A stretch of DNA of 64,000 bases from Serratia sarumanii (lineage in GTDB: Bacteria > Pseudomonadota > Gammaproteobacteria > Enterobacterales > Enterobacteriaceae). Positions 3,001 through 5,716 of the stretch are shown here, one piece after another. Location of the stretch: the NCBI RefSeq assembly GCF_029962605.1, contig NZ_CP124750.1, positions 4,526,001-4,590,000 on the forward strand, given 5' to 3'. The position numbers and the translations under genes are program-made. The notes under the pieces were generated by a model. It was not told the DNA's origin. It saw only the letters and a list, made by a program, of their open reading frames with translations, and did not search any database. How positions within the stretch are numbered: the stretch's first letter is position 1; each line of letters starts with the position of its first letter.

Positions 3001-5716
3001 CCAGCAGCCCGACCAGCATCGGCAGCCCGCGCCCGGCACACAGCGCCACCAAGCTGTCCGGCTGCACGCCAAGCTGTACCAGCCGATGGGCCCAACGGTT
3101 CGCCTGGGTATTCAATTCCGCGTAGGTCAGGCTGTCATCGCCATACGTCACCGCGATCGCCTCCGGCGTCCGTTTAACCTGTGCTTCGAACAACCGGTGC
3201 AGACAGGCCGTCGGCGAATGTGAAGCGACGGTGTGGTTGAGGCCCTGCAGCAACTGCGCGCGTTCTTCCTCGGAAACCAGACTGAGTTCGCCGACGGTGC
3301 GACGATGAGAACCCGCCCTCACCGCGTCGTTGAGCAGCATCAGCAGATGTTGCGTCGCCCGCAACATCTGCTCGTCAGCCACGGAGGCGGCGTCGTAGAC
3401 CCAACGGAAAGCGCCGTCAGCCTTGCAGATTTGCAATACCGCGCGCGAGCCGGAAGCCATGATGGCGGCAACCCCCTCGTCTTCAGGCTGCAACCCCTGC
3501 GCCGAGCGCCGGCTGACGATCGATACCGCCGTCGGCCAAGTCTGAGACGCTCGCAGGTCCGCATCGCGCGTCAGCAACGCGGGATGATAATCGGCATGAG
3601 CGCGCAGCTGGCTATATTCCTGTTCCAGCGCGGCCAACGCCTGCTGGAAATTGCCGGTGTGATCAACAGAGACCTGCAGCGGCAGCACGCGCGCGCTCAG
3701 GTGAGCCCAACGCCCCCAATTCCGATCGTCCGGGGTGATCCACCCCAGCTGAAAATCGGTTTCATTGCACATGCGCGCCAGATAAAGGGTTGCTGCCGCC
3801 AGCACCTGCTCGCCGGCAATTTTTTCCAGGCGCTGCCAGGCCGTCGCCTGCCAGCGTGCGGGAAGATCCGCCTGGCGGCCAGGCCCCGGCGGGAACGGCG
3901 CCGGATAATAACGCGTCAGGCGCGGTTGCCAAAAAGCGGCGCTATCGGCGCTGGCGCCATACGCCGCGCCTAACAGCGAGGCTTCGGCAGCGTTAATCGT
4001 CGGCAAGACCGAGCCGACAGACAGGCCGCAGGCCTGCGCCAGCGCATCGCCTGGCTGAGCCGAGCCGTCGGCGCGCAAGAACGGCCCGACGCGCACCACG
4101 CCGGGGTTCGCGGCAATTACCCAGCCGTCGGCCTCGACGTGCAGCAGGGTACCGGGTTCGGCCTGCCGCTCATCGCTCACCGCCTGCAGCGCCGTCACGC
4201 CCAACACGCGCTCCGCCAGCAGCATCTTCGCCGCGCATCCCGCGCCATGGCTCAGCGAGCTCACCAGGCGCTGCAGCGCCTCAGCCGGGCGATCCCAACG
4301 AATGATGCCGCCGGCAGGCGGTTGCCGACGGTTGGTGTAAAAGCTGCCGCCGGCCTCGGCATCCGCCAGCGCCGCCACTTGCCGATCCAACGCCTCGATC
4401 GTCCCCGCCGTTGATGCGTTCAGCGCCCGTAAAATAAACTGGAAACGGCGCTGCAAAACATCCAGATCGCCTAATGAATTTGCATAATCGGCGTCAGAAA
4501 AAGTGACGTCCAGCTCATTCGCCTGCTGGTCTTCATACAGCATAATCTGTAGATCGCCGGACGGAATATTCCCGCCATAATACCAACGGGTGCGGCATCC
4601 CCAGAAAGGATCGCCGTGGTCGAAAGAAACAATGTTAATTGAAGGGCCAAACCAGGCGGAATCCGTCGCGCCATTGTCACGCCGAATATCCTCCCCACGA
4701 TATAATTGATGACGAACCACTTTTGCTATTTCGGCTGCGACCTTTTGGATAAATTCGGCCAGACTCAGCTGGGGTTCAACCTTGATAATCAAAGGGACAA
4801 CGTTAGAGGTCATACCAATACTGTTTCGTTCTCTCGTTCCGGTCACCGGCATGCTGAAATTAAGATATTCACTGCCGGTCAGGCTGTAGAAACATAATGC
4901 TACGGCGGCGGCCAATATATGTGCGCGGTGTACGCCGATATTGTCAGCTTGTTGCTGCAGCTGATCCAATGCCTCTTTTTCCAGCAGCTGCGTGTTGCGG
5001 TTCATCGCGGCGTCCGGGGTCAATATGGCTCTACGCGACAAACTCTGCGGCGCAGCGGCAGTATATTCCCGCCAAAAAGCCTGATCGGAAGAAAAGCGTG
5101 AGGAGTCGCGGTATTTGATGTCGTTTTCATAAAGCAGAGAGAAATTGCAGTTGGCGAATTCAGGGATGACGCCGCCGGACGCCAGCGCGTTATAGTAAGC
5201 CGCGATGCGCCGCATCACTTCCTCGGCACTGCGGCCGTCGGTGATCATATGGTGGAAACGCCGATAGAGGACATAGCGCTGCGGAGCGAGCGTAATCACA
5301 TAAAAACTAAAAGGTTCCTCTCCCGTGGCGCGGCGCGGCAGCGCCGCATCCGCCACCATCCAGCGTCTGGCCGCCTGCAGGGGATCGGGTTCCTTACTGA
5401 GATCGAGTGTGAACAGCGGCTCATGTGTGCGTGGCGCGCGGTATTGATAAAGCTCACCGTCTTTTTCCACAAAATGCGCTTGCAGAGCCGGCGTTTCTTC
5501 GACGATAGCATCGATGGCTTGCCGCAGCAGCTTAACGTCGAGAGGCCCGTCAACCTGCCCATAGCCCCAGATATTGAACGACAACTCTTTGGAAATATTT
5601 TCCCCCAGCCAGAGTTCACGCTGGGCGATAGTCATTTCATGCAGTTCGACTTTCTCCGCCGCGGCCTGAGCACCCGTACGGAGTTCCCCACTCTTCACAT
5701 CAGTTTGTTTGTTCAT
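1..5716 (-). CDS. Nonribosomal peptide synthetase, 5' part (C - FmtC-like - half C - A - T - C - A...)
   Basis: Partial gene: 1905 codons from the ATG at 5716, running off the left edge. Visible order, approximate residues: condensation domain 25-450 with HHMITDG near 154; a 100-residue block 471-572 resembling the C-terminal domain of methionyl-tRNA formyltransferase (begins [10 protein letters not shown], then [12 protein letters not shown], ends GLSVGSVLP); the C-terminal half of a second condensation domain 590-840 without an HHxxxDG; an adenylation domain 855-1340 with [27 protein letters not shown] and GNGKLDK; a thiolation domain with [10 protein letters not shown] near 1384; a condensation domain with HHIVSDGW near 1567; and the start of another adenylation domain at about 1850. 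Residues lining the A pocket read DFWNVGMVHK, one change from the threonine code DFWNIGMVHK. The three motifs at both ends and the middle lie in one uninterrupted frame. The product is unknown. AGAGAA precedes the ATG. The initiating C domain suggests an acyl or aryl starter (inference). Confidence 0.93.

Follow-up and report, generated by a model that had tools for sequence, protein, structure and literature searches.

Background

In the linear gramicidin synthetase LgrA, the formylation (F) domain is directly followed by an adenylation (A) domain. In the engineering of nonribosomal peptide synthetases (NRPSs), the XUC concept splits the condensation (C) domain into donor and acceptor halves. 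Here we describe an NRPS gene of Serratia sarumanii (RefSeq assembly GCF_029962605.1, contig NZ_CP124750.1) whose first module holds the C-terminal domain of a formyltransferase (FmtC) and one half of a C domain. The gene encodes 5,955 residues, and its N-terminal 1,910 codons lie on the minus strand at positions 2..5731 of a 64,000-nucleotide stretch (contig positions 4,526,001 to 4,590,000), hereafter the window. It runs on outside the window to genome C1:4513864 (whole gene, genome C1:4513864-4531731, C1 being here the contig) and ends there in a thioesterase (TE).

Formylating initiation modules with an F domain are named for linear gramicidin (LgrA), anabaenopeptilide and kolossin A in the accessible text of PMC8949500. 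Like these, the module studied here has a formyltransferase-derived domain in an initiation module and would serve the N-capping of residue 1. Unlike them, it has lost the catalytic half of the formyltransferase (FmtN) and has a starter C domain in its place. NRPSs of the window type also differ from LgrA in keeping FmtC plus a half C domain before the A domain.

The stephensiolide (SphA) and serrawettin W2 (SwrA) synthetases of Serratia are known lipopeptide makers, and their products are described as fatty-acylated in the accessible portions of PMC9911388 and PMC5094094. The 2022 review PMC9581180, in the portion that includes its Table 1, lists swrA and sphA as (C-A-PCP)1-5-TE (PCP, peptidyl carrier protein). 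The present gene resembles both in its five modules and TE and in its neighbours LrgB, glutamine amidotransferase and acyltransferase, and SphA also in its Thr-Ser-Ser-X-X coding. It differs from the plain C-A-PCP modules drawn there by the FmtC and half C of its first module. The word 'formyl' is absent from the searched text, itself partial, of PMC5094094, PMC4117218, PMC7767323, PMC9911388 and PMC9581180, and the architecture was not described in the open-access literature searched.

We consider it very likely that the first module is the one that loads a stephensiolide-type synthetase, with the order starter C (C1) - FmtC - half C - A - T (T, carrier domain), and that it arose when a starter C took the place of FmtN. 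The module is real and conserved, and we class it as a chimeric loading module of natural origin rather than as a new class of enzyme.

Results

Domain order of the first module

Pfam analysis of residues 1-1910 reported condensation domains, PF02911, an AMP-binding domain with its C-terminal domain, and a carrier domain. C1 is a complete starter-type condensation domain encoded on the minus strand, as are all features below, at 4382..5674 (residues ~20-450), with HHMITDG at residue 160. Next come FmtC, together with the linker SFYxxRRxPxAGG, at 3992..4348 (residues 462-580) and the half C at 3254..3991 (residues 581-826), a condensation-domain C-lobe lacking both the N-lobe and HHxxxDG. That motif was not found between residues 167 and 1571. 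The second PF00668 copy does not comprise both lobes, its match being confined to the C-lobe (model residues ~121-361 against 176-431 of the rhizomide synthetase RzmA); we take RzmA residue 176, where the structural match begins, to lie near the boundary between the lobes. The catalytic FmtN (PF00551) was absent from residues 1-1910 at E <= 1. C1 occupies the FmtN place, and the PF00551 half with Asn-His-Asp that defines an NRPS formylation domain is missing. Motif and domain analysis thereby confirmed an original prediction made from the window sequence alone, which had placed a full condensation domain before FmtC and only the C-terminal half of one after it; its coordinates for the FmtC-like region (3995..4310, residues about 471-572) and its claim that no catalytic formyltransferase half was present were likewise borne out.

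The FmtC domain

PF02911 was matched at residues 475-561 with 23.8 bits in the Pfam scan, at window 4043-4309 with 29.4 bits (E 3.2e-6) in a whole-genome search, and with 27.6 bits in a scan of the 18 rows that share the architecture (see below), against a curated cut-off of 21.1. Fourteen of these 18 rows matched individually at E <= 0.01. The genome holds three PF02911 places, namely a 349-codon Fmt-type frame, a 694-codon ArnA-type frame and the NRPS. A profile built from nine NRPS copies of FmtC only, when compared with solved proteins, ranked Met-tRNA formyltransferases and ArnA first (3r8x, E 2.2e-6; 1fmt, 3.5e-4; 5j63, 4.6e-4), and unrelated entries appeared only from E 0.67 on. In genomes the profile also found many Fmt-length frames, including the Fmt of the window genome itself. 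Two AlphaFold models were confident (mean pLDDT 83.7 and 83.4). In the predicted structure of residues 460-826 (mean pLDDT 83.7), the FmtC part forms a helix, six strands and a helix, and structural similarity to a C-lobe does not set in before about model residue 121, past the FmtC part. With PF02911 above its cut-off, an Fmt/ArnA C-terminal-like domain inside the NRPS, as first proposed, can be regarded as confirmed.

A tRNA-binding role of FmtC was probed by net charge, which ranged from -6 to 0 in the 18 rows and was -2 and 0 over the matched part of the Fmt and ArnA-type proteins of the same genome. Charge does not discriminate between these groups.

Distribution of the architecture and its formyltransferase-bearing relatives

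A family search of 295 genomes found matches spanning C1 and FmtC in at least six, the window's own included; this is a lower bound, with at most four candidates scored per genome. The FmtC domain was found in 10 of 30 genomes of the genus, again counting our own. A scan of the genome collection gave 79 loci (loci here and below are numbered with L). The match runs along C1-FmtC-halfC in 17; of the other 62, chiefly actinobacterial by title, most match in C1 alone. These 17 loci, which answer the search for further C-FmtC-half C synthetases suggested with the original prediction, together with the window NRPS are termed C-type (18 rows). The C1-FmtC-halfC-A order recurs in Serratia (marcescens, ureilytica, inhibens, bockelmannii, nevei, silvae and microhaemolytica, the last with four loci), Photobacterium (three), Enterobacillus (E. 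tribolii), Yersinia (Y. nurmii) and Erwinia (two). The four loci of S. microhaemolytica ZS-11 (L087, L088, L089, L106) are different NRPS starts. L081 is a C-type NRPS of Photobacterium galatheae S2753, a strain in which ngercheumicin lipopeptides have been assigned to a putative gene cluster (accessible text of PMC8541647).

The FmtC profile also found NRPSs with another N-terminus, all in genomes of the same class or of a different class within the phylum. Among the 38 frames first examined, 17 were C-type and 21 were not, and an N-x-H...LP formyltransferase signature was found by pattern in 19 of the 21. Pfam, run on eight of the 21, reported PF00551 in seven (in the exception, L154, FmtN is degenerate), PF02911 in all eight (five above the cut-off) and AMP-binding in all eight. 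In these F-type NRPSs the order is FmtN-FmtC-halfC-A in one frame, the half C of most loci resting on alignment. They share FmtC with its linker, the half C and the A domain with the C-type, and have FmtN where the C-type has C1. A further difference in three of the eight scanned (L047, L050 and L159, of ~1,540-1,580 codons) is a PF00296 match to luciferase-like monooxygenases that follows the A-domain core and is below the cut-off in L050 and L159. More F-type loci came from the genus of genome G488 (16 of 80 genomes, mostly 7-10 Mb). In total there are 42 distinct F-type loci, in which FmtC follows FmtN, or a decayed FmtN remnant, instead of C1. One literature query, with no wider search, found no characterised product of an F-type NRPS.

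The aligned FmtN active-site letters are N-H-D in 30 of the 42 loci and changed in 12; judged by these letters, the catalytic site decays in some F-type loci while FmtC stays. Decayed sites with FmtC kept were seen in L173, L179, L182, L188 and L192 of the G488 genus and in L154. The change is His to Gln, and in L154 the site is unrecognisable; L173, L179 and L182 have an in-frame TAG inside the match.

The junction between the two types

The 18 C-type and 36 of the F-type proteins were split at the linker (S/R)(F/Y)(Y/F)xxRRxPxAAG, located at residue 462 in the window protein, and blastp (E <= 1e-3) was run separately on the two parts. Similarity is lost sharply upstream of the linker: 0/648 C-type/F-type pairs match there, and 534/648 match downstream (median 92.6 bits). 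In upstream controls, all 306 ordered C-type pairs and 1209 of 1260 F-type pairs matched. The downstream part of the window row matches 32 of 36 F-type proteins, and its best five matches cover residues 463-800, that is, FmtC and most of the half C. By this comparison the downstream unit is homologous between the types and the upstream enzyme not detectably so.

We rely on this split-part test and not on two cruder versions. In an ungapped comparison (18 x 10 rows), scores were low upstream, rose to +1.1 to +3.8 over ~25 residues from the linker, and were low again farther on, where gaps begin; the window row was off register by one residue. Free local alignment, in which the window linker was misplaced at residue 76, aligned 519/648 pairs. 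On the C side, the start lay over 20 residues ahead of the linker in 47 of the best alignments, and five alignments were entirely upstream, which likely reflects the C-lobe of C1 aligning with F-type half C, or chance extension.

Phylogeny and constraint

An unrooted tree of FmtC plus half C was built from 54 rows (18 C-type, 36 F-type) with 200 bootstrap trees. Twenty loci were left out because they repeated a place already represented, were near-copies or fragments, or added to the Serratia copies (L162-L170, L171-L173, L175-L177, L179, L180, L182, L184, L194). A second unrooted tree, made by a quick method, compared the 18 C1s with 36 other C domains (34 scoring 180-300 bits with long matches, plus C2 and C4 of the window gene). 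In it, the 18 C1s form one clade (SH-aLRT 99). Together, the two trees favour one acquisition of C1, without proving it.

The ratio dN/dS was computed against seven Serratia relatives; two pairs of relatives give identical figures, so there are at most five independent comparisons. Values were 0.22-0.51 for FmtC, 0.02-0.11 for C1, 0.09-0.15 for the half C and 0.08-0.19 for part of A1, with FmtC highest of the four segments in 7/7 pairs. The 95% limits of FmtC and C1 do not overlap in four of seven (L075, L164, L167, L168), and the upper limit for FmtC is below 1 in four pairs and above 1 in three. From these ratios, FmtC looks tolerated rather than tightly held, yet not neutral in most pairs.

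The starter condensation domain

The closest solved protein to C1 is 7c1k (160 bits), by its structure title the starter condensation domain of the rhizomide synthetase RzmA and a deposit listed in the accessible text of PMC7804268; CDA C1, EntF and ObiF1 follow. C1 is the first domain of the line, carries HHMITDG and is closest to lipid or aryl starter C domains. Like the starter C domains of RzmA, CDA and EntF it has HHxxxDG, and unlike them it is followed by FmtC and half C, not by an A domain. The motif is intact in 15 of 18 C-type C1s, and its second His in 18/18. By analogy with the reported sphA and swrA products, C1 would transfer a fatty acyl group to residue 1. The C1 of L106 (S. microhaemolytica ZS-11) has NHVLIDG, and those of L085 (Erwinia piriflorinigrans) and L124 (E. 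mallotivora) have HHSLLDV and HHSLTDV, with the motif glycine replaced by valine; C1 may be altered in these two Erwinia loci.

The synthetase and its predicted product

Downstream of the half C lie A1 at 1730..3190 (residues 848-1334), T1 at 1457..1645 (residues 1363-1425, by Pfam) and C2 at 80..1405 (residues 1443-1884, by Pfam). The whole NRPS has five A domains, five T domains and one TE. The A-domain codes are DFWNVGMVHK (A1), DVWHMSLVDK twice, DAL-LGAVF and DAM-IGATF; the last lysine was assumed by the script, and the last two codes, aliphatic-looking, were only partly extracted. We take these to specify Thr-Ser-Ser-X-X, A1 being presumably of Thr type. With five modules, a TE and this coding, in Serratia, the gene fits a SphA-type stephensiolide synthetase. 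Its nearest named relative is that of S. marcescens 106R (96%).

The flanking LrgB, glutamine amidotransferase and acyltransferase genes are those listed for swrA loci, and an identity as serrawettin W2 synthetase, first held on these neighbours, was dropped on the A-domain codes. The locus is thus swrA-like in its neighbours but sphA-like in its codes, and the two may be confounded in surveys that apply the name swrA to any NRPS found here. A relative within the genus, G254, is 57% identical overall, has the same FmtC and half C, and has codes for Leu (partly by eye), Ser and Thr; serrawettin W2 begins in the same way (PMC5094094, accessible text). After an incompletely extracted Leu-type first code, S. 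bockelmannii L077 continues with Ser-Thr and S. nevei L078 with Thr-Ser.

Two domains outside the window, C3 (residues ~2500-2960) and C5 (~4620-5080), carry HHLLAERGD and WHHLIGDH, which we assume to be the signature of dual epimerisation/condensation domains. If so, D residues would be predicted at positions 2 and 4; the accessible text of PMC9911388, noting no epimerase domain, suggests the L configuration. Over 342 columns, C2 (from residue 1444) and C4 (from residue 3565) share 88% identity, and A2 and A3 have the same code and nearly the same sequence, which points to recent module duplication or gene conversion.

Discussion

We hypothesize that the module arose in two steps. In the first, a formyltransferase (FmtN-FmtC of ArnA/Fmt type) would have taken the place of the donor N-lobe in a condensation domain of an ancestor, so that only the C-lobe remained attached to the A domain; the half C kept by both C-type and F-type speaks for this step. 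In the second, a starter C would have displaced FmtN in an enterobacterial/vibrio line, with the break immediately ahead of the linker of FmtC. The present C1 would attach a fatty acyl chain to the threonine carried by T1, in agreement with the reported products of such genes. The half C would be non-catalytic and keep the usual C-lobe seat for A1, and it is probably older than the swap since it is common to the FmtN-bearing relatives. FmtC is probably a non-catalytic spacer or adaptor between the half C seat and C1. The original prediction had offered a former formylation domain replaced by a condensation domain as one option, and this is now strongly supported by relatives with FmtN-FmtC-halfC-A in one frame and by the 0/648 upstream and 534/648 downstream matches. 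Its other option, a structural or docking module, is plausible as a present role. As in the XUC concept, the half C starts near the lobe boundary, and nature may have recombined near the same place; here, unlike in XUC, the donor half was replaced by a formyltransferase and not by another C half.

Several observations weigh against this history of replacement. The tree of FmtC plus half C requires two changes of the C label, with one change in 50% of the bootstrap trees, and places the doubtful pair of Yersinia nurmii and S. silvae apart, so that this tree does not settle a single swap against two. The direction of change, FmtN lost rather than gained, rests on parsimony with Fmt and ArnA, because FmtC follows FmtN in proteins of both types. 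At the junction, 114/648 pairs had no downstream match at E <= 1e-3. The half C was called by Pfam (PF00668) in only 2/18 C-type rows and in only 2/8 of the F-type rows scanned, both of the latter below the cut-off and confined to profile positions 186/195-456. Fold searches with the model gave lists filled by half C matches and did not isolate FmtC. As for constraint, the FmtC intervals are wide (119 codons), low dS in several pairs inflates the ratio, and in a wider comparison with three relatives A2 exceeded FmtC in one (0.317 against 0.224, L076).

Other explanations of the module must be weighed against replacement. That the PF02911 match is a chance similarity, the region belonging to a condensation or epimerisation domain, might be argued from the modest single-sequence scores of 23.8-29.4 bits, but was rejected and is extremely unlikely: 14/18 rows match on their own, the nine-sequence profile places Fmt and ArnA far ahead of the first unrelated protein, FmtN-bearing relatives exist, and C-lobe similarity begins past FmtC. 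The PF02911 search called for by the original prediction thus returned a significant match. Nor does FmtC seem to work in trans with a separate formyltransferase, the first residue being formylated at some stage. Five PF00551 places in the genome could supply a partner, but none is within 40 kb of the gene, so that a partner beside it was rejected; two of them are the Fmt-type and ArnA-type frames with their own PF02911, C1 is a lipid-type starter C, and the sphA and swrA products are fatty-acylated in the literature cited above. We judge this very unlikely. Another of the five places, at genome C1:4469885-4470085 on the minus strand, is a weak match (38.8 bits, profile 92-155) in a 294-codon frame. 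A reversed order, with C1-FmtC-halfC older and FmtN gained later by the FmtN-bearing NRPSs, would suit an unrooted tree, which cannot separate gain from loss. It is nevertheless improbable, since the same genome has FmtC behind FmtN in its Fmt-type and ArnA-type frames, and a free FmtC would have to be rejoined, in frame, with the very partner it once had. F-type loci also span nine family codes against four NCBI families for the C-type, two naming systems that are not directly matchable.

A different question is whether FmtC and half C are more than remnants. They could form a required socket that positions T1 or gates its access to the upstream N-capping enzyme, so that the cap chemistry (FmtN or starter C) is exchangeable while the socket stays. 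FmtC persists behind two different upstream enzymes, in 18 C-type and in 42 F-type loci, the latter including the 12 with changed FmtN active-site letters; its upper dN/dS limit is below 1 in four of seven pairs, and the AlphaFold models are confident. Against this, FmtC has the highest ratio of the four segments in every pair, with an upper limit above 1 in three, which equally fits a tolerated spacer. We regard a required socket as possible, though somewhat doubtful. We also put forward, tentatively, that FmtC plus half C is a portable two-piece adaptor onto which a formyltransferase, and later a starter C, was plugged in front of the same A-T pair, and which still positions T1.

Conclusions

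The first module of the stephensiolide and serrawettin W2 synthetases has so far been drawn as plain C-A-T in the text accessible to us. With half a formyltransferase and half a condensation domain, it would be a clear natural example of a change of cap, from formyl to fatty acyl, by half-domain swapping. Its break points, the FmtN/FmtC linker and the C-domain lobe boundary, are concrete candidate sites at which initiation enzymes could be fused to engineered synthetases. The geometry of the loading module also becomes testable, as T1 has to get past two domains that seem inert before it meets C1. In genome mining, the presence of FmtC should not be read as evidence of formylation. If the adaptor proposal is true, the module would preserve the traces of two grafts made one after the other, the first into a condensation domain and the second into a formyltransferase, and these grafts would mark where NRPS initiation chemistry can be exchanged.
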